A stretch of 64,000 nucleotides of DNA from Nannochloropsis oceanica (Eukaryota > Sar > Eustigmatophyceae > Eustigmatales > Monodopsidaceae): NCBI GenBank assembly GCA_004519485.1, contig CP038116.1:62001-126000 (forward strand). Direction: 5' to 3'. Within the stretch, counting starts at the first letter, position 1; every line of letters starts with the position of its first letter. Shown piece after piece: positions 20,877 through 62,998 of this stretch. Under the pieces are notes generated by a model. The model worked only from the letters and a program-made list of their open reading frames with translations, made no database searches and was not told where the DNA came from. The translations under genes were made by a program, and so were the position numbers.

Positions 20877-23800
20877 CTACTTTTTGTGCGTCACTACAGC
20901 ATTCACCTTCTGCGCAAACCGCAACGACAACACACTCTCCGACAAGGATGCGGCCGCGGGCGACAGATTACATACCATCAGCGCCTTACAATCTCCACCC
21001 AACGAGTGCTTCAACAAACTCGTCAATGCCGACTCCCGGAACGGCACATGCCTCTCCTTCTTTCCCAAAGCCGTTATAACGTTCCCTAACACACTCAAAC
21101 TCTTGTTGATGCTCTGCGTCTCCTTCAACAAGTCTGAGTGGGCGTTAACCCCGCTCTTCTTCATCCTCTCCGAACCCGCCAGGTCGATCAAATGCAGACA
21201 ACCATGCCTCACAATGCCCCTAGAGCTCTCCGCTTCAATCTTCAGGGTAAACACCACATGCGACCGGGACGAATCCGCGTTGCTCCTCGTCCGTTTCACG
21301 CACCGACGGGCCAAGGCCTCACCGACCAAGGCCGTCACCTCCGACGCCGAGTGAACAGGCAATGAAGTTAACCCAGGCACCGCCTCTCCCTCCCTCCCTC
21401 CCTCCCCAAAGCAATGCCGGACCTCCAAACCCCGCCTGCTACTCCTTTTCTTTCCCCCTCCCCTCCCCATCCCGTAGCTACCACTGCTGCCACTACTTGC
21501 CGCAAACACCCCCTTCCCATTCCCGCCCTCAGACAGCTCAAAATCATAATCTCCTCCTCCCTCTTCCACATCCGGTGATAACAGATCCCTCAATTTTTCA
21601 TTGTAGATCTCCACCATCTCCACCGACAATCCGAACCTCCACCCATGCTTCCTCAAGGCCGCCACCGCCCCGAACACATGCTCGACGCTTCGATAAACAA
21701 TACCTCGTTCCTCCTGCGGCATCGCCTTACTGCGAATGCTGCTGGTACGCCCGCCATTGGGGCCCAGCATGGTGTAGGTCTTGCCGGAATTCGTCTGCCC
21801 ATACGCAAAAATACAGACCTTGTACCCGTCCAACGCGCTCTGCACCAATGGCAGGACCTCCGCAAAGACAGCCTCCTGGCTTGCCCTTGGCGTGAATACT
21901 TGGTCATAGGCGAAGCGCCTCCCTTCCTCCCTCACTTCTACCCCATCCTCTGCTGTCGGCGCCAGCTCCAAGGCGCGACAGAATCTCTCCCCTGCGGAAC
22001 CAACCCCTACTCCGGAGTCAATGAACTTAAAGGGGAGAGTCTTGAGTTTCCCTTCCCCTGCCTCAGACAAGGGAGGGCGGACGCGGACAAACACCTGAAT
22101 ATTGCCTTTGAGCTCGACAAGTTGGTTGTGCAGGGTCTTGCGCACCATATCCGCCCGTTCGCAGTCCTCTTCCATACGGCCAAGGGATTTGGACATCTCC
22201 CTCTTTTCTTTCTCCAGCTCGGAGGCTTTGCGTTTGTATTCCTCCATTTCTTTCGTCAATCGCACTTTATCCGCTTCCAGGGCCTGGGCCGCGTCCCGGG
22301 CATCAAGCATATGAAGCTCCATGGCCTCTCGTAACTCCCTCTCGCGCGACAGCTCTGCGGCATGTTCCTCCAACGTATGCCGTTGCTCGTGCAGTAAAGC
22401 AGACATGCGGCGGCGCTGCTCTTCCACCTGGGCTTCGACCCCTCCTCGACTACTGCCAATACCTGCAGATGTAGCAGTACTTGTACTGGTGGCAGTAGCA
22501 GCAGCAAGAGCAGCGGCGGTGGAGCTACGGGTCTGCGGACGGTGGGAGTGGTATTTGTCTTCGAGCACCAGGTCACGGGACAAGACCACCGACTTGACCC
22601 GCAGCTCTTCCTCCAGCGAGGCCGCAAGATCCTTGGTGGACATCACCTTGAGCGTCAATGCTTCCACCTCTTGCTCCTTCTCCTGCAATTGAGTCGTCAA
22701 CGTTTCGTTCGCCGTTTCCAGCCGTTGCTTCTCCCGGCTGTCCCGCTCCACCTCCTCGTGCAAAGCCTCGCATTTTGCTTCCAGCTGCACGACATGCTGC
22801 TGCGCTGATGCCGCCTCAGCCGCAACCGCTGCCTTCTCCACCTCTGCTTGCCGCACTGCGGCTGCTGCTGCTTGTTGCTCCAGCTCAAAATCTCGGAGCC
22901 TCCCATCGGCCTGCTCTTTGGCCTGCAACAGCGTCTGCACATTCTCGTTGCGTTCCTTCTCTTCCTCCTTCAGCTTCATCGCCACTGCTTCCGCCTTGGC
23001 CTTTTCTTCTGTCGCTCTCTCCAGCTTTCCCTGCATCTCCTCTCTGTATTCTTGCGCGGCCATCAAGCGATCCATGAGTCCGTTCAGCTCGTGCTCTTTT
23101 TCTTGCACAGTCAACTGTAGTCCCTCCAGCTGGCCTGCCACCTCCTCCTTCGCCACCGCCCCTGCCTCCTCCGCCGTAAGCAGCCTTTCTTTCAATGAAA
23201 GAATTTCCGCGTTCTTCTTTTCCAGCGTGGCCGACAGCGCCTTGACTTGCACCTGAGCATCCTGTAATGACTCGAGCGCCGCACGATCTTCCGCTTGGGC
23301 CGCCAAGCGACCACGAAGGCCATCACACTCCTTCTCCTTGCTCCCCAGCGAGTCCCCCAACTCCTCCACCTGCCTCTGCACTTCTTCCCGTGCTCGACGC
23401 ATATTCCGAGCCTCTCTCTCCGCATCCTCCCACTTCTGCCTCATTGCTTCCAATTCCCCCTCCCCCTCCTCCATTTTGGCAACAAGCGCCTGTCGTGCTC
23501 CTTCCTTCTCTTGGAGTGCCCGCTGAAGCCCAACGATTTCCTTTTCCTTCTCCTGCACCAGCCCGTCCAGCTGGCAGACCTCCTTCTCCTCCTTTTCCAG
23601 GCGAGAGATCAACACCTGCATCTCCTCGTTCTCAGCGGCCTTCCCTTTCTCCCTCTTCACTTGAACCTGTTCCTTCCAGCCTCGCACCTCCACCTCCTTC
23701 TTCTCAAGTGCCGTTGTCAGCGAGACGACCGCCTCCTGCTCTGCGACGAGCTGCTGCTGTAGCACCACAACCTCCCCTTCCCTCTTCCTCAACTTGGCCT

Positions 23801-25923
23801 GCAAACCCGCCATCTCCCTATCCTTACTCATCAAAGTGTGCTTCCCCTCTTCTTTTGCCTCCCTCGCCTCCTCCTGTGCCATCCTTCTCTCCTCCACCAG
23901 CACCCGCAAGGCTTCCGCCCGTGCTTCCATCGCGTCCTCCCTCCCTGCATTCGTCGTAGCCAGCTCCCGGGTGGCCAGGCCTCTCATTCCCCCAGCCAAG
24001 AAAAACATGTTCAGCGCCTCCTCCAATGCCCGCCGCTCGATCCGTTGGGCCTCCGCTTCCGCCTCCAACCGAGCCCTGTCGGTGTCTGCCTTCGCCTGCC
24101 GATCAACCAGTAGCTTCTCCAGTTCCGACACCCGTGCTTGCGCCCCACTCAAAAACGTCATCTGACTTTCACTCAATAAACTACCTAGATCCACCGGCGC
24201 TACAGCAGCAGCAGACGTTGTGGCAGCAGTAGCAGCAGCAACAGTAGCAGCCGAAGCAGCGGCTTCCTTGATAGCTTCGCGTGCTTGCGACTGTGCTTCG
24301 CGGACCTGCCCTTCCAGCCTGGTTTGCGCGGCGAGCAATGAGGCATTTTCATCCTCTAGAGCCGCTACCTTTGCCATGTACTCATCCACCTGCTCCTGAA
24401 GGGTATCCATCAGCGTACCCGCATGCGCACACCTCGCCTCACTCGCCACCAAGGCCTCTTGCGCCTTCTCCACCTCCTGCGGCATCTTCTCCAGTCGTGC
24501 CAGCATGGTCTGAGCATGCGCCAGACGCTCTTCCAGGCTTTCAATTTCCTCCTCCTTCTCCGCACAGCTCGCCTCGGCTGCTGCCAAAGCCCGCAAGGTT
24601 TCAGGTGAAGGCACCTCGACTTGCACCTCCACCACCTCCTTCTCCTTCGACGGGGATGTCTGCTGCTGCTGCTGCTGCTTGCGTTCCTCCAACACAGAAG
24701 CCAAATGCGCTTCCAACTTCGTCAACTGCTGCTGCATTTCTACCAATGCCTTCTCCTTCTCTTCGCTTTTTGCAAACACCACCCTCAATTCCTCCCTTGC
24801 TTGCTGCAACAATTTCGGTACTCCCTCCAGCTCCGCCACTCTCGCCTCCCCCGCCGTCAATCGCCTCCTCAACTCCTCTACTTGTCTATCCTTCTCCCCA
24901 CACATTGCCTGGGCAGTCGCCAGCGCCTTATGACTTTTTTCCAACTCCACGGGTACGTTTTTCTCGAGCACCACCAACCGCACCCGCTGCTCCTGTACCT
25001 GCTCTCGGAGGTGGCCGACCATCCCCTCCTTCTCCTGGCACAAGGCCTGCGACGCCGCGAGCGCTTGCTGGGCTTCAGTCACACACTGCGGCAAGGTCTC
25101 GAGAGAAGAAAGTTTCACCTTGGCCTCCTGTAGCTGCCCCTGGAGGGAGGCAACCACCCGTTCGCGTTCTGCACACACTGCCTGTGCTGCTGCCAGCGCC
25201 GCAGCAGACTCTTGGACGTTCTTCGGCAAGTCCTCGAGCGCAGAGAGCTGTTTGTGCGCCTCTTCCAAACGGGCTTGTAGCCGCGCCACCACCATTTCCT
25301 TCTCCGCGCACTGCTGCTGCTGCTGCTGTAGGGCCTGCTTGGTCTCAGCCACCGTACGTGGAAGTTCCTCCAACGTGGCAAGCTTCGCCTTCGTTTCCTC
25401 CACCCTCACCCGTAATTCAGCCACCATCGCTTCTTTTTCATGGCACACGGCTTGGGCAGCTGCTACTGCGGCACGCGCTGCTCGGACTTCCCCCTGTTCC
25501 TTTTCCAGGGCCGAGGCGAGGAGGGTGGCTTTCTGGTCTGTTTCCAAGAGCTTCTCGGCCAGTGCCCTCTTCTCGTGCTCGACTGTGATGAGGTCGTCGA
25601 GAGTAGCCATGAGCTGAGCGCGGGTGGGGGAGATGGGGGAGGGAGGGCCTGGCTGTTTGCCATTGCTGCTGGTGCCGGTAACGGCACTGGTGGTAGATTT
25701 GCCACCAGAGGTGGAGGAAGGGCCACGGGAGGAGGGGCGAGGGGCCGGAATGGGGGGAAGGGGGGCGAAGATGGGTGTGTGGTGGATGGAAGAGTTAAGG
25801 AAAGAGGATGAAAAGGAGGAGGAAGAGGAGGAGCCGGTGGAGGAAGGGGAGGCGCTGGAGGCCTTGAAGGTGGAGGGGGTGATGGGCAAGGGGGGGATTT
25901 CCATAGGCTGTCGTTCCCCCTTC

Positions 25924-25959
<36 letters not shown>

Positions 25960-26219
25960 GCCTTGCTGCTGCTGCCCATTGAGAAGGTGGGGACTGGGGG
26001 TGCAGTGCGAGAGGTGCCGGGAGTACGTATCGCCGCAGGGGAGGGAAATGGAAGCTCGACGTTATCAAGGTTGCTGTTGCTGCTCGGGGTGTTGGTGGTA
26101 GCTGCCAGTGTAGGAGAAGCCACAGCACCAGCAATGCCGGATGAGGGAGAGATACTGGCCCCGCTCAGGGCTGCTGTGATGTCTGCCATAGAGCCTTCTG
26201 CCTTTGCTTCTTCTTCCTC

Positions 26220-26275
<56 letters not shown>

Positions 26276-28212
26276 GAGGGGAGGACTCTACTGCTGCTGC
26301 TGCTGCTTCCTCTTTGTCCTGCAGCACCGCAATCTCCACTACGACCGAGTCCTCGACAGCAGGCGGGAGCGCCCCATCTTCTTGCTCCGTCTTCTCCTTC
26401 TGCTGCTGCTGCGGCTGGGATTGCGGCGGCGACGACGGTGACGACTCATGCTTTTGCTGTGGCGGCTGCTGGTGCTCGGCCTCGTCAAAGCTTCTCCCAC
26501 GACCTTCCTCCAAATCGGCAATTTCCTGCACAGACGAAAGCACTGCTCCCTCCTCCTCCTCCTCCTCCCCGCCCTTAACCCTTACCTCCTCCACCTCACC
26601 CTGGTTTCCATCGACCTCGCCATCAAACAACCCTCCCTCATCCCCTCCCTCCTCGCTCTCACTCCCCTCCTCATCCTCGTCCTCCATTTCCAAGCTCGGC
26701 CTTTTCTTCCTCCTTCCCTCCGCGTCTCCCCCATTCGCTTTCTCCTCCCCTCCCTTGTTCCGTCCCGTCCACCCCGGCCTCCCGGGCGGCGAAAACTCCA
26801 AATTAAACATGGAGCTCCTCCTCCCGCCCTGCCTGCCTCCCATGAACGTCCGCTGACTCGACTCCTCCTGGAAATTGTACTGACGGGAATCTTCCACCCT
26901 TCGGGGCGGCGGAGAGAAATTTAGGGTGAACAATGCATTGTTCACCACAGGGGGTTTCTTGGCCTTGAGCTGATTAGGCGCTTTCCCCAGATAGCCACTG
27001 CTGGGGACGGACGCCCAGTTCTCCTTCATGCTGGTACTTGCACTGCCCGTGCTGGTCCGACGGTTCATGCTCACGCCCTTGCCTTCCGGTGCGAGAGGGG
27101 GGGATGCCGCACCACCGACCGAGGCGCGACGGTTGGAGGAGAGAGGACGGAGGGGGCGACGGGCTGAATTGCACATACGCTTCTTGTCCTGCTGCTGGTT
27201 GCTGCGACGACGCTCCATTCTGTCCTTCTTCCGTTGCTCCTCCAACTGCAGGGAACGACGGCGAGCAGCCGCCTTGGAAAACAAGGTCGTGTTATGCGTG
27301 CTACCGGAGATACTCACATTCAAGCTGCTCATGCTGCTATTGAGTGCATCGCCTGTTGAGGCTCGCCTACCTCTCCCTCCCTCCTTCATTGACTGGAACT
27401 CCCTCAATTGCTCCTTCCTCTCCTGCTGCCCCTTCGACAAGCGTCGATGCAAAGCTGACTGCTCGAACCGCTCCTGGCTAGGGTGCTTCGGCCTGCTTTT
27501 TCTTCCACTTCCGGGGGTGGTCGATTGGGAACGTCCTCGTCCTCTTTCTCCACCTGCTGCTGCTGCCTCATCCGCCGCGGCAAAGACGAAGGGAGGAGAA
27601 GAAGGAGAGGTGCTTCCCACGCGATGTCCCGCAGGGGCAGGAGGGGCTGAGGGGGTGCCCGCAGGGGAGAGGAGGCTTTCCGTGCGCTGTTTTTCGGGCG
27701 TTTGCTCCTCCAGGTAGGCTGCGAGCGATTTGCGGGAAGGGATGGGAGTGGGCAAAGAGTCGAGGTTGATGCTCTTGACGGAAGTCGCGGGGCTGGAAAG
27801 GAAATCGGCCTTGAACGTGCTTGTGCTACCCCCGGTGACGCTCTTCTTAGTGCTGCTGAGGAGGAAGGAGAAGGAGTTGGAGGGCGGGGGCGTCAAGGTG
27901 CCTTGGGCGAAAAAGTTTAGGACGTTGCCCGTTCCTGGCTGGTAGAATGACGAGTTGTGCTGCGAGTCCTATGGAGGAGTGGAGGAAATAAATGAAATGT
28001 GTGTGTGCGTGAGAGAGAGGGCTTGTGGGTGCAAGCCGTCATGGCTTTCTGCAGGCACGCACAAGTCTCCTGACTGTCTCCCGCTCTCCCGCCCTTTCCC
28101 AAGCCCATACAACGCTTACCTCGTCACCCGCAGCCGGAGAACTGGTCGAAGCGGCGGCAGGCGTGGGCAAGGTCCCGGCGGCAAGGCCGCTTCCACTCGC
28201 CAAGTCTGCCAT
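20877..28212 (-). CDS. Giant kinesin-14 with C-terminal motor
   Basis: Exon 1 (28212-28120, 31 codons) joins exon 2 (27968-20877) in phase 0 to give 2394 residues, two to three times the usual length of kinesin-14. Residues 1-820 are low complexity (Ser, Pro, Arg, Glu), with a poly-Gln run encoded by (CTG)n at 26221-26273. Residues about 824-1980 are an almost unbroken coiled coil whose first part is a 45-residue tandem repeat. The neck ELKGNIQVFVRVRP near 1980 is the kinesin-14 neck-motor junction and implies minus-end-directed movement. The motor follows: P-loop AYGQTNSGKTYTM (about 2085), switch I NADSSRSH (about 2262), switch II DLAGSE (about 2292), and VPFRESALTSLLKHSLGG. The P-loop has Asn where most kinesins have Gly or Ala/Ser, still within GxxxxGKT. 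Probable roles are in spindle or interphase microtubules. Its promoter is shared with the next kinesin. Confidence 0.93.
24430..25580 (-). repeat. 135-bp (45-residue) tandem coding repeat in kinesin stalk
   Basis: Within the stalk, starting at Cys873 (codon 25445-25443), units of 45 residues (one of 46) follow one another. Each begins C-x-E-K/R-E, continues with an L-x(3)-L/V coiled-coil segment, then L-E-x-L/V/M-P at about unit positions 25-29, then an Ala-rich A-L-x-A-x-Q-A end. I count five clear units in a row, a sixth in which Ser replaces Cys and which carries a Gln-rich insert, a seventh perfect-length unit beginning CAEKEEEIES, and diverged units at both edges. The DNA copies are diverged, so this is an old protein repeat, not a recent microsatellite expansion. 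Confidence 0.8.
26221..26273 (-). repeat. (CTG)n / poly-Gln tract
   Basis: About 17 uninterrupted CTG triplets on the plus strand encode Gln in the giant kinesin on the minus strand. A shorter GCT/CTG run encoding Ser lies at about 25928-25955. Confidence 0.85.
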
Positions 28213-28953: not shown

Positions 28954-29805
28954 ATGTCCTCTCTTCTCAACGCAATGCGTCCCGAGAGCGCAACCCCTTC
29001 GCTAACCAACATCGAGGATGCCGACATGATCGAAATGCTCCGACAAGAAGTGTTGCGGAAGGACGAGGAGCTTGCTTCCATGCAAAGGGCCTTTGAGGAG
29101 CTCCAAAACTCGTCCCAAGAAATTGAGCAGGAATTGGAAGTCGAGCTGGGCCGAGCTGAAGCGACAATCACACACTTAACGAACGGCCAAACGAAACAGC
29201 AGACTTTGATCGTGTCACTGCAGAGGAGTAGCAAGGAAAGCACAACAGAGATGGAGCGCATGGCGATCGAGCGTGCAGAATGGCAGCGTCGTTGTGAGGA
29301 TCTGACGACACAAAAATTGAATTTAGAGACCGAATTTGATATGCTGGAAAGCAAGGTGAGAGTGTTGGAGGCCACAGAAGAGTCATTGAGGCATGAGGCG
29401 GAAAAATTGGGGGAGGAGAAGGTGTATTTGTTGCATGAGGTAGATGATTTGAAGGCGAAAGGAGTAGAGGCAGAAGCGAGGCTACAGCAGCAGTTGACGG
29501 ACATGAGCCACGATTTACTCGTCTTGCGATTGGAGAAGGAGAGGAGGGAGAAAATAGAGGAAGGACACGAGGAGGGGAGGATTACGCGGTATTCGATAGA
29601 AGATGGGGACCTGTCGCTTACTGCTGCTGCTGCTGCAGCGGAGATGGAAAAGGAGAGGGTGGAGGAGGCGTGGATGTGCGAAAAGGAAGTGTTATCTGCT
29701 CAAATCAGACAGTTGGAGGCGGCGTTGTCGAGGAGTCGAAGGCGCTCGGTGGAAATGAACAGGTCCCTCATGTCGGCCTCTTCCCCGCAACAGCAACGGC
29801 AGCAA

Positions 29806-29839
<34 letters not shown>

Positions 29840-32800
29840 GACAGCAGCATCAGCCGCGTAAGGCATCAGCAACCTTGCCACCATTGTCATCGTCAGGAGA
29901 AGGAGGAGGAGGAGGAGGGGACGGAGGAGGAGGGGACGGAGGAGGAGGGGCTGTAGCAGTGACACCAGAGGATAATCCTGAAACATCTGAGACAAAGCCG
30001 AGCGTGAACCAGGCTTCTGTTTCGGCGCCTTTGTCCTCGTCCTCATCCGCAGTGCAAGAGACAGAGAGGTTGAATAAACAATTGCGTCAGATGTCGTTGA
30101 AGGTAAGTGAAGAAGGGGGGAAGAAAAAGATTGCATTTGCAGTTGGACTGTGCCTTAGAGACAGAGGGGAGTCCGATCCATCCCGTACCTAACGTTTCCA
30201 CCCTCCCGCCCTCCATCCCTCCATCCTTTCCAAACAGTACTACAAGCAACGCTCCTTCAACTCCCGTCTCCTCTCTCGGATGCAAACCCTCCAAAACAAA
30301 ATTCAAGTCTGCTGCCGCGTTCGCCCCTCCCTCCTTTCCCCCTCCTCCCCCGCACCTACTTTGGCGGTGGAAGCTCTGAGTGATGTCGAGGTCGGTTTCT
30401 TGGATCAACGTCAGGTCCACGGAGGATCTGAGCAGCAGGAGTGGAAAGCTTTCAATTTTGACAGGGTCTGGGGACCGGAAAGTACCCAGGAGGACGTTTT
30501 TTTGGATGTGGAGGCGTTGGCGTTGTCGGTGATGGAGGGAGAAAACGCATGCATTATGGCCTACGGTCAGACAGGGAGTGGGAAGACATACACGATGGGG
30601 GCGGGATGGGAGGCAGGGAGGGTAGGCTGGGAGGAGGATGAGGAGGAGGAGGAGAAGAGGGGGATAAGTCACCGGTTGTTGGAGAAGATGATGGAGTTGG
30701 CGAAGGGGGAGGAGGAGGAGGAGGGAGGAATAGGGGAATGTGAGGGAGTGTCATCGATGGTGGGGTATGTGGTGGCCATGTCCATGGTCGAGGTCTACAA
30801 TGACGACGTCCGGGATCTTTTACCTCGAGGCCATCTCTCTCTCCCCTTCCCCCCCCCCCTTTCCTCCTCCTCTTCAGCCTCCTCCTCCTCGACCACGCGG
30901 GGACCCGTCATCCTCGAAATCCGTCGAGATGCCGAGAACAATGTCCGGCTTCCGGGTATGGTCGAACGAGAAATCCGCACCTTCGCCGATGCTTCTCTCC
31001 TCATATCACAGGGAAACAAGGCGAGGGCCACTGCAGCCACCAACGTCCACGAGCATTCCTCCCGTTCTCATTCAATAATCATTTTGAACGTCACGAGCCG
31101 AGCATCAGGGAAAAAAGGGAGGTTGTACCTGGTTGACTTGGCGGGATCGGAGCGAGTGAAAAAGAGTGCAGTGACAGGGGCCGCGCTGAAGGAAGCGCAG
31201 CACATTAACAAGTCCTTGTCGGCCTTGGGAGATGTGATGGAGGCACTAGACAAGAAGAGTGCTCATGTCCCTTACAGGAATAGCAGCTTGACTCACCTAC
31301 TTTCGGAGTGTTTGGGAGGCCCGGGGGCGAAGGAGGGAGGGAGAACCATGATGATCGTAACGGTCTGTCCGTTCAGTGATGTTACAGACGAGACGCGTTG
31401 TACGTTGCAATTTGCGACGAGGGCAAGAAATATTGAATTTGGAGAGCCAGGAGGACGGGGGGGGGCGGGGAGGGAGGGAGGGAGTGTGAATGTCCGGATG
31501 AAGAATTTGGAGAGGGAGTTGAAGGTGGTGAAGGATGAGTTGAAGGCGAAGGAAAGGGAAAAGGTCGAGGTGGAGGAGCAGCTGGTGGGGATGAAGAAAG
31601 ATTACGTTGCTGTCCAGAAGAAATTAAACCTCCTAATAGAAACAAAGGGCAGGAACAGTGAAGAAATGAGAAGAGGATGGGAGGAGCAATTGAGTGCGCT
31701 GAGAACGGCGAACCAGACCTTGACAACCCGATGGCATGTCGAAAAGTGCGCGAAAGAAAAGGTGGGAAATGAGCTGGAGGAAGCCCAAAAGATGATTCGG
31801 CGGCTACAGCAGCACACCGAGTCGAGGGGGGAGCATTTGAAGGCGGCAAAAATGCAGCTGCGGGAGAAGGATGAGGAGGTGTCCGAGCTGAAGAAATCTC
31901 TGAGGAGAACCGAGAGGGAACTGTCCAGAGCGACGGCTCTTTTCTCTGCATCTTCCTGTCCGTCTTCCACCACGATCATTGCTACTGCTCCTGTAGTGTC
32001 CTATTCCTCGTCCTTGTTGCGGGCTTCCGCCACTGCCGCCCGAGGAGGATTTGGGGCCGAGCGGTCTATCTCTCCTCCCGCAAGCCCTACTGCAGTCAAT
32101 CCCGTTCCAACCTCCGTCATTCACGCCTTTTCCAGGAATGGCAGCAGCAGCACCACCACCAGGAGCAGCAGTAGCGATAGCAAGACAGGCGACACTCTAG
32201 TAAGGCACCAACCGAAGGTCTTCTCCTCTTCCTCCTCCGCTTCTGCCTTCCCTGCTCCTCCCTCTGTCTTGGCAGTTGTGACAGAGAAAGCGTCTGCTTT
32301 CCCGTCATTGAGAGAGAGAGAAGGGCCATTACCACCAGCAGCAGCAGCACGGGGAAGAGGAGCAACAGCAGGAGCTGCAACAGCAGATCTCAACAGTTCT
32401 GGTCTGCCACAACAACAAGAGCAACAGCAGCAGTACGCAGGTGCGGTCGTCCTACCGCTCTGCAGGAGGGGAAAGGAGGGGGAGGAGGGGGACCGAGACG
32501 AGTTTCCCTGCAATAGACGGACAATGGGTGATGTTGTTTCCAAGTATTCAAACAAGGCGAATACGGCCGTAAGCGCCACTGCCACCCCTATTTCAATTCC
32601 TTCCTTCTCCCCTTCGATCATCGACATGATCATTCCTGAGGAAGGGCCGCCGTCATTCCCCTCCTCTTCGACCCCTTCCTCCCTCTCTTCCTCGTCGTCC
32701 CCCTCAATGAAGCAATCAGGAATGATGGCAGCAGAACGGATCCCTGCCCGGCCGCGACTAACGGGAGAGGAGGAAGGAGGGAGCGAGGGAAGGAGAGAGG

Positions 32801-33708
32801 ATGGTTTTGGCGGAGGGGTGTATGACAGCGTTGTGGCTTCGCCCCCTCTTCCATCTCCGCTGCCATCTTTTCTGTCCCGTCGGTTACAATGCCAGCAGTC
32901 GTCTGTGATCCCTCATTCGACTATTTCTGAGACTTGTCCCCCCTGTGAAACCTCTTCCTCCATCCCTCCCTCCGTCCCTCTCTCCTCCTCCACCACCACC
33001 ACCACCCTTCCCCTCCCGCGAATGGCCAGTATCACCACGGACAACATCGATAGCAGCGCCAGCAGCAGCACCACGAGCATCAATGCGCGTGATGATCCTG
33101 AAGTAGCCACAACACGTTCGTCATCCCTATCCTCCCGAGTCCATGGCTCTCTGCCCGTGTATGCCACTCATGACCACTTGCAACGCGCCGCCTCTGCGAC
33201 TGGTTTTGGTGGCAACAGCAGCAGCAGCAGTAGCTCTATTGGTAGAACGACCAGAACCAGCACGAGCCCTCTTCGTCCTCGCTTGGGGTCCCTGCGGCCC
33301 ATGTCGAGGAGTAAGCCGATGGGAGGGGGAGGAAGAGAAAGGGGAGGGCGAGATAGAGGAGGGGGAGTCTTGCGTGTCTCTCGCTTGGCGCCACCGCATC
33401 GAATTGAGAAGGGTATAGCGGCGAGTGCAAGGAGTGCGGGAGGGGGAGGAGGAGGAGGAGGAGGAGGAGGAGGAGGAGGAGGAGGAGGAGGAGGAGGAGG
33501 AGGAGGAGAAAGGGTGATGTCTACCATTCATGGAGAGGGACAGAAAGGACGGGGCCCTGCACATGTTGGTGCGCGTTTTCCTCCGATGAGTGTGAGTGCG
33601 ATAACCACGAAAGGAGCGAATGCTTCAGTCAGGCAACAGCAGCAGCATCATCAGTCACAGCAGCCTGCGAAGGGGGTGAGCAAACCGTCGGTGGCGCGAT
33701 GGCGGTAG
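28954..33708 (+). CDS. Kinesin-14-like protein with internal motor
   Basis: Two exons, 28954-30102 and 30238-33708, join in phase 0 to 1539 residues. Residues about 25-210 are coiled coil, followed by poly-Gln and Gly-rich stretches. The neck R-x(4)-L-Q-N-KIQVCCRVRP begins at about 398. The neck's placement after an N-terminal coiled coil and its Y-Y-K-Q-R approach resemble kinesin-14 (KCBP-like) necks. Motor marks: AYGQTGSGKTYTMG (about 491), NVHEHSSRSH (about 652), DLAGSERVKKS (about 682), VPYRNSSLTHLL, ending R-A-R-N-I-E-F near 780. An acidic loop insert follows the P-loop and a Ser-rich insert follows VRDLLPRG. A second coiled coil spans about 800-955. The tail to 1539 is Ser-rich, with a pure GGA-encoded poly-Gly run at 33440-33508. 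The motor is thus internal, unlike the C-terminal motor of its divergent neighbour. The direction of movement is not certain. Confidence 0.92.
33440..33508 (+). repeat. (GGA)n poly-Gly tract
   Basis: About 23 near-perfect GGA triplets encode a Gly run in the tail of the internal-motor kinesin. The sequence is G-rich enough to form quadruplexes in the mRNA. Confidence 0.85.
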
Positions 33709-61885: not shown

Positions 61886-62998
61886 TTATCCTGACAACCG
61901 CAATATTATCGCCAGCACCCCCAACGTGATACTCACACAAATTAGAAGCAACGACAAACTTGGCTCTACTTCCTCCCTCCCCACCTTTTGTCTTGCCCGC
62001 CCTCCACCTGCCTCCCCTCCACCCACCCTTTCAAATAGCCCCCCCAAAAGCCCTACTCCCCCACCCTCCGCACCTCCCTCTCCATTCTCTTCCCTCTTCT
62101 TCCTCCGCTCCTCTTCTTCCTCTACGAATTCCGGAAACAACTGCACAAATACCGAATTTGTCAGATTAAACGCCATAGTCCCTTGCGCCAATTTTCGTTT
62201 TTGGGCGGCGCTGGTTTCGATGCTCCCGAGGGTCGGCGCGGAGTCAAGCATGAAGGCCTGCAGACCCATGAGAATGGTACTGACAGACCACATAGGGTTC
62301 CATGTCTCGGGATGGAAGTCGGACCTAGGAAGGTAGAGAAAGAGGGAGGGAGGGAGGGAGGAAGCGCAGGAGCAGGAGGGTGGACTTAAATACGCGGTAG
62401 GCACAATTATGACATCGGGAAAACGGTAAAGCCAGAAAAATGTGGGGAAAAAAGAGTTTGTCAAATCGCATACATTGAGAGGCAGAGGCGTGTGTTAGGC
62501 TTGAAGCGACCGGACGGGGTGAGCATCAGAATGGAGGGAGGCTTGAGGGGGTATTCAGGCGGAAACTTGAGCTTGCCGTGGTAGTAGCCGCCTTCATACG
62601 GGCTGCCCCTGGCCCCCTTTAGAACGTAGTGCCAAATAAGGATGTTGCTGTTGAGAGCAGGAGGAGGAAAGGACCACAGGGAAGGCATAAGCATTGTTAT
62701 TGTATTAGAGAGACAGGCTCTTGTTCAACGGTGCCGTATAGCGATGCTGCTACTTTGTCTGCGCGCTGCTACGAGGGTTTGAGCGCCACACTTAACGTAT
62801 ATATATATCCACCAAAATACGCATGCCCGCTCGCCCATACAAGTCGTCCATACATGCGTGGAGTCAGCAAAACACAGAGATTAAAACACACCAAGCGACT
62901 AACCTTTCTAAGGGCCGGGCTGTTATGTTCTCTACCGGGTCCCGCTGTAGCGCCACGAGCTCCTTCCGGAGGCGTTTGGCAGACAAAGATGTGGCCAT
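61886..62998 (-). CDS. UBE2J2: Tail-anchored ubiquitin-conjugating enzyme E2 J-type (UBC6-like)
   Basis: Three exons on the minus strand, 62998-62904, 62647-62474 and 62324-61886, join in phase 2 twice to give 235 residues. The enzyme loads ubiquitin for degradation of ER proteins. The start [16 protein letters not shown] is that of the family. Then [26 protein letters not shown] and [12 protein letters not shown], with the catalytic Cys at 87. [11 protein letters not shown] and PTLGSIETS follow. The usual HPN of E2s is absent, and TPSGRF in its place is normal for the J class. A Glu/Gly/Arg-rich linker of about 55 residues leads to one C-terminal membrane helix ([21 protein letters not shown]) that anchors it in the ER. 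The J2 versus J1 assignment is by resemblance only. Confidence 0.94.

Follow-up and report, generated by a model that had tools for sequence, protein, structure and literature searches.

The 64,000-nucleotide stretch of Nannochloropsis oceanica analysed here (the window; positions 62,001 to 126,000 of contig CP038116.1, assembly GCA_004519485.1) carries on its reverse strand the gene of a giant kinesin-14, the stalk of which contains a tandem array of nine units with a period of 45 residues. The bulk of the gene is one large open frame, exon 2 (20877..27968; 2363 codons and a stop), in which no more introns are seen; ahead of it, the sequence points to an intron of 151 bases (27969..28119, gtaagc...ccatag) and a first exon of 31 codons (28120..28212), running from ATG to GAG ahead of the gt donor. 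The ortholog P0004 starts with MADP and has GDEDSQ across the same join, and the full-length kinesin would have 2394 residues. Residues are numbered from here on by the large open frame, not by the 2394-residue gene model, and all features of this gene lie on the reverse strand.

The Pfam kinesin motor domain (PF00225; 20898..21935) is matched at residues 2012–2357 of 2363 (E 9.9e-89; 298 bits against a cut-off of 29.3), so the motor is C-terminal. The solved motors that score best are KIFC1, Kar3, KIFC3, Ncd, and KCBP (among the best 60 of 87), and in a midpoint-rooted FastTree tree of 31 chosen proteins and the window's own, with protein names as given by their sources, the kinesin and its orthologs fall into a clade with KIN14H, KIN14C, KIN14N, and KIFC1- and KIFC2/3-named proteins (support 0.965), nearest to two KIFC1-named ones (support 0.946). 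Motor position, solved relatives, and tree thus agree on a giant kinesin-14, as a first-pass annotation of this DNA had it. The neck-to-motor junction, KGNIQVFVRVRP (22074..22109), presumably resembles a kinesin-14 neck sequence. A C-terminal motor is typical of the kinesin-14 family according to the excerpted text of PMC1434745. It is shared by kinesin-14s of the KIFC1/Kar3/Ncd kind, from which the window protein differs in its inferred length of 2394 residues and in its nine-unit array, the unit having been found only in the database proteins P0001–P0004.

The array spans residues 797–1224, with units 0–8 starting at residues 797, 842, 887, 932, 977, 1023, 1068, 1135, and 1180, so that the start-to-start spacing from unit 1 onward is 45, 45, 45, 46, 45, 67, and 45. 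Unit 0 (797–841; 25446..25580) is degenerate, without Cys and without Pro. It is followed by unit 1 (842–886; 25311..25445; Cys842, Pro870), unit 2 (887–931; 25176..25310; Cys887, Pro915), unit 3 (932–976; 25041..25175; Cys932, Pro960, and an additional, out-of-phase Cys962), the 46-residue unit 4 (977–1022; 24903..25040; Cys977, Pro1006), and unit 5 (1023–1067; 24768..24902; Cys1023, Pro1051). Unit 6 (1068–1134; 24567..24767) is split by an insert of 22 residues, which brings it to 67; it has Ser or Gly in place of Cys and no phased Pro, the insert having its own Pro at 1106, 1120, and 1122. Unit 7 (1135–1179; 24432..24566) has Cys1135 and Pro1163, and unit 8 (1180–1224; 24297..24431) has Cys1180, no Pro, and a degenerate second half. 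Cys therefore stands at the start of seven of the nine units (1–5, 7, and 8), and Pro occurs in six (1–5 and 7), at offset 29 except in the 46-residue unit 4, where the offset is 30. Nine Pro occur in the 428 residues of the array, three of them belonging to the insert, against one in the 590 residues of stalk 1311–1900.

The first-pass annotation had placed the array correctly, ending it slightly short of 24297, and had described seven or more consecutive units of 45 residues, once 46, with one Cys and one Pro in each. The repeat is real, but the regular run is of five units (842–1067), with the 67-residue unit next; the Cys is missing from units 0 and 6, and the phased Pro from units 0, 6, and 8. 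The landmarks that it gave hold as consensus features and are strict in only some of the nine units: C-x-E-K-E in four (six in the relaxed form C-x-E-[KR]-[ED]), L-E-x-L-P in three, and A-L-x-A-x-Q-A in two.

Shifted against itself by 45 residues, the array has a mean BLOSUM62 self-similarity of 0.83 over residues 797–1224 and of 1.36 over units 1–5. None of 2000 class-preserving shuffles, which retain the hydrophobic pattern, attains either value whatever the shift, the best of them giving 0.28 against the 0.83 of the whole array. The remaining stalk (1225–1937; 22158..24296) shows no peak at this shift where it was tested (1271–1900). A profile built from units 1–3 of three species finds the held-out units 4, 5, and 7 in all five array-bearing sequences at independent E-values of 1.5e-4 to 6.2e-12 (set of 159 proteins): the window, P0001 (the database copy of its protein), P0002, P0003, and P0004, the last of which had not contributed to the profile. 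Shuffles and held-out units together establish a significant 45-residue period, and on them a chance origin of the likeness is rejected. In raw coordinates, the clustering of residues modulo 45 is reached by 8 of 20000 random placements for Cys and by 553 of 20000 for Pro, a test that loses force through the lengths of unit 4 (46 residues) and unit 6 (67).

The database carriers of the array are P0001 (the window's own protein, 100% identical), P0002 (82%), P0003 (62%), and P0004 (58% identity in the repeat region), whose alignment covers 100% of residues 780–2363. No further carrier appeared at E 0.001 among 7992 candidates scored from 5.8 billion proteins, in a search with a ceiling on the number of candidates and reaching only relatives of similar length that share exact 5-residue words; P0101, an ortholog fragment with a length of 1103 residues, begins after the array. 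Within the genome (29.26 Mb, 32 contigs), residues 842–1223 find only themselves at E 0.01 (18 candidates scored). In the four rows compared (window, P0002, P0003, and P0004) all units are kept in order and, outside unit 6, at equal lengths of 45 or 46 residues; unit 4 has 46 residues in every row, and there is no gap in residues 842–1067. The length of the unit 6 insert differs among species, with Pro1106 inside it and Pro1122 just after it kept in all four. Leaving out the insert and one residue of the 46-residue unit, the mean identity of units across species is 65.5% at the same position and 31% between positions, and all nine units match their own position best in P0004.

The DNA of the copies is diverged, with 42–56% identity among six units and no DNA repeat within the array reported by Tandem Repeats Finder at score 50. 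Between these six copies within the window, sites with the same residue share the codon in 91 of 256 cases, against 100.2 expected from the codon usage of the gene, so the synonymous history has been erased. Since the orthologs keep the order and lengths of the units and the synonymous sites are saturated, the array is old and held at the protein level, in keeping with the earlier view that the copies have diverged as DNA under selection on the protein. It predates the split of the ortholog species and has not been homogenised since. Of the periodic residues, Cys is the same in all four rows at 5 of 7 sites and Pro at 5 of 6, with Val for Cys in units 2 and 7 of P0004 and Ala for Pro915 in P0003. 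Leu is conserved as well as either (44 of 53 invariant in residues 797–1224), and Cys and Pro therefore behave as parts of the structure would, rather than as a chemical site under special protection.

The hydrophobic stripe of units 1–5 has a period of 3.48 residues (on a scale of our own), and that of the rest of the stalk 3.485. In a register search, the best core set on the Kyte-Doolittle scale comprises positions 1, 4, 8, 11, 15, 18, 22, 25, 28, 32, 35, 39, and 42 of the unit and scores 3.63, a value that none of 5000 column permutations, run over all 90 core sets, attains (highest 3.46). This register has 13 core layers per 45 residues, or 3.46 residues per layer: six heptads and one three-residue stammer, by which the heptads are interrupted once in each unit of 45 or 46 residues. 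The favoured place of the stammer, for which we rely on this search rather than on the noisy Fourier phase track, is between Leu25 and position 28, that is, in L-E-x-L and directly ahead of the Pro, a placement that is likely but not settled. A period that is not a multiple of 7, which had been counted against a coiled coil, thus does not speak against one. Cys occupies the core position "a" of the favoured register, and Lys4 a polar "d". Because Cys gives way to Val in two units of P0004 (2 and 7) and, in all four rows, to Ser or Gly in unit 6, it fits a core position, not a bridge, and the recurring Cys look like ordinary core packing.

An AlphaFold2 model of residues 797–1224 (a single chain, 4 sequences) is nearly all helix, with a mean pLDDT of 72.7 and a pTM of 0.27. 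Its helix is broken at residues 868, 913, 957, and 1048–1049, which are unit offsets 26–27 and lie just before the Pro in four of the six Pro-bearing units, and again in the unit 6 insert, where residues 1103–1121 (24606..24662) are predicted at low confidence to be non-helical. A jointed rod, as the first-pass annotation had proposed, is plausible from the model because the Pro recurs in register and the predicted helix breaks just before four of the six. A control stretch of stalk of the same length and without Pro (1311–1738) is modelled at a pLDDT of 78.9 and a pTM of 0.40, in helices of 14, 107, 113, and 164 residues.

Fold searches return coiled-coil hairpins and bundles (SMC arms, chemoreceptors, the dynein stalk); Foldseek gives no match at E ≤ 0.001, in a list from which the absence of a family proves nothing, and the repeat fragment has no relatives of solved structure by sequence at E 0.1. 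Several Pfam coiled-coil families match the fragment weakly. Med9 (PF07544) matches three stretches of the cut-out fragment with 36.8 bits against a cut-off of 26.9; homology to it is not accepted, because the whole protein scores only 18.4 bits, and the match is probably a likeness of the helix-LP-helix pattern.

How ordinary such arrays are was surveyed in 159 proteins (158 hits and the window's own), a non-random sample picked by likeness to the window protein and judged at thresholds that we set ourselves. Arrays occur in 52, of which 47 are neither the window gene nor its orthologs, out of 153 non-orthologous kinesins. The period is divisible by 7 in 12 of these 47 (chance alone would give about 7) and not divisible in 35; Cys is in register in 7. 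Pro is absent from the detected segment in 42 and in register in only one (P0067). Even P0003, an ortholog, does not count as having Pro in register in the survey, because one Pro is lost and only two lie within the scanned segment. As other arrays and odd periods are ordinary and the Cys is not unique, the phased Pro is the distinctive part. Like the array described here, those of P0073 from Diplonema and of the KIFC1-named P0006 (both with a 42-residue period) and of P0150 from Nannochloropsis salina (48) are tandem arrays in kinesins, the first two, from other lineages, also with Cys in register; unlike it, all three are without Pro in their detected segments and do not match the 45-residue profile at E 1. 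P0150, an N-terminal-motor kinesin of N. salina CCMP1776, has a counterpart in the window's own genome (C11:626877-634148, loci L010 and L011; 59–61% identity).

The statement that no kinesin had been described with such a unit stands in part: a search of open-licence papers found none on this unit and no periodic joint system, but a repeat-bearing kinesin is known. In the excerpted text of PMC6921591, the Leishmania kinesin-related protein K39 has tandem 39-residue repeats, and its cloned fragments vary in repeat number. Compared by that description only, K39 and the window protein both have a tandem array in a kinesin, of 39 versus 45 residues and of varying versus fixed number; with its period of 45, the window array falls outside the K39 type. 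The only Leishmania-named kinesin among the hits (P0134) has its motor at residues 143–548 of 2312.

The reading that we favour, with moderate confidence, is a coiled-coil rod divided into segments by soft joints at intervals. An ancient duplication would have multiplied a 45-residue coiled-coil module within the stalk of a single kinesin-14 gene, and selection on the protein would have preserved it since. Each module would consist of six heptads and one three-residue stammer, or 13 core layers, with the stammer most likely in L-E-x-L and the Pro directly after it, so that there would be one weak point per module and these would be spaced by about 6.7 nm (45 rises of 1.5 Å). The rod is most likely a parallel dimeric coiled coil of short stiff segments between the soft joints; unit 6 would add a larger, disordered break, and the Cys would be a small core residue at "a". 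The long stalk could then flex or fold up with both of its ends, the C-terminal motor and the N-terminal tail, still attached to their targets; the dimer, the bending, and the cellular role are all inferred. Bending may serve a free reach between two microtubules, or fold-back autoinhibition by analogy with the elbow of kinesin-1 as presented in PMC9481135. There, the elbow is a heptad break in the stalk, with a Pro at a "d" position in KIF5A; the likeness to the window array lies in the broken heptads and the difference in their being broken once, not repeatedly. A stammer of three residues is described for L1ORF1p as adding a core layer after "d" and as destabilising (PMC5940361); L1ORF1p has one stammer in a trimer, with no mention of Pro there in the excerpted text, and the window array would have one per unit.

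Several observations weigh against this segmented rod. Three of the nine units are without a phased Pro. The expected Pro hinges appear only in part: the model has no break at Pro1006 or Pro1163, a low-confidence break at residues 919–920 is off the phased place, and the control stalk also has three breaks, without Pro, one of them setting off its short 14-residue first helix. The models, moreover, are of single chains from 4 sequences, with a pLDDT of 72.7 and a pTM of 0.27 for the array. On a Fauchere-Pliska-type scale, with Pro counted as hydrophobic, a break near the Cys narrowly outscores one at L-E-x-L (1.16 versus 1.11; null maximum 1.15 in 5000 permutations over 90 core sets), and only when Pro is set polar by hand does the L-E-x-L placement win (1.14 versus 1.07). 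Finally, Pro and Cys pooled (5 of 6 and 5 of 7 sites) are more often invariant than the other positions (181 of 415; Fisher p = 0.018), but this test was devised after the data had been seen, and singly neither Cys (p 0.14) nor Pro (p 0.06) is conserved significantly above its surroundings.

Foremost among the alternatives, and one that we regard as possible though doubtful, is a plain coiled-coil stalk from old tandem duplication, in which the Pro was inherited from the founding unit and is tolerated at the first turn of each segment without any mechanical role, the period being incidental. Arrays are indeed common (47 of 153 non-orthologous kinesins) and mostly not divisible by 7 (35 of 47), the stripe period of 3.48 is near that of an ordinary coiled coil and of the rest of the stalk, and Cys and Pro are conserved no more than Leu. 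Against this alternative, Pro is rare in such arrays (none in the scanned segment of 42 of the 47 others) and in the neighbouring stalk, with its single Pro in residues 1311–1900 against nine in the array; and five of the six phased Pro are invariant in the four rows although the copies average 31% identity. An improbable alternative is a fold-back device, with the unit 6 insert as an elbow about which the two sides of the array pack together in an autoinhibited state, as in kinesin-1, which is an N-terminal-motor kinesin.

Still less probable, indeed very much so, is the disulfide- or metal-bridged rod that the first-pass annotation had put forward, with the Cys of two chains linked at each unit. 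The "a" positions of parallel dimers do bring two Cys close, and the four rows agree on Cys at 5 of 7 sites. The cytosol, however, is reducing; Cys is not kept in all members, P0004 having Val at 2 of the 7 sites and each of the four rows having Ser or Gly in unit 6; and Cys is in register in 7 of the 47 other arrays as well. Bridging as the main explanation is rejected on account of the replacements. To chance likeness or an alignment artefact in low-complexity coiled coil we give virtually no weight, for although the composition is skewed to A, E, L, and Q and the fragment weakly matches several Pfam coiled-coil families, the shuffles, the held-out profile matches, and the unit order kept in four rows stand against it.

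The stalk of a motor is commonly regarded as a simple rod that has one or two hinges. If the weak points of the segmented rod do recur regularly, nature would have supplied a test of how the spacing of joints governs the stiffness and folding of a motor, together with a ready-made module for comparing versions of a single rod that carry 0 to 6 joints. Only tentatively would we go further and regard the stalk as an evolved segmented spring, in which a stammer and a Pro every 6.7 nm or so set the bending stiffness, and unit 4, with its 46 residues, and the insert of unit 6 steer the folding. The survey also corrects an easy mistake: long kinesin stalks commonly have repeat periods that 7 does not divide (35 of 47 arrays), and a recurring Cys is seen in other arrays too (7 of 47).

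Some further observations concern the rest of the protein and its surroundings. Among contigs of prokaryote genomes, 44 stretches fit the pattern of the 307-residue motor part, none of them confirmed as a relative. The P-loop (21777..21800) reads GQTNSGKT in the window, P0002, and P0101 and GQTGSGKT in P0003 and P0004, a change inside the nucleotide-binding loop within one ortholog group. The N-terminal tail contains two similar motifs, LFTLNFSPPP and MFxLEFSPPG (26781..26933), and a KEN tripeptide (27015..27026), all of which are kept in the three tails compared (window, P0003, and P0004); KEN serves as a degradation signal in cell-cycle proteins, and its presence would suggest that this kinesin is mitotic. 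A second kinesin (30280..33708, forward strand), an open frame of 1142 codons with a motor match at 30418–31434, is encoded on the other strand roughly 2 kb past the start of the kinesin-14 gene, with a 412-codon frame (28954..30192) in between.
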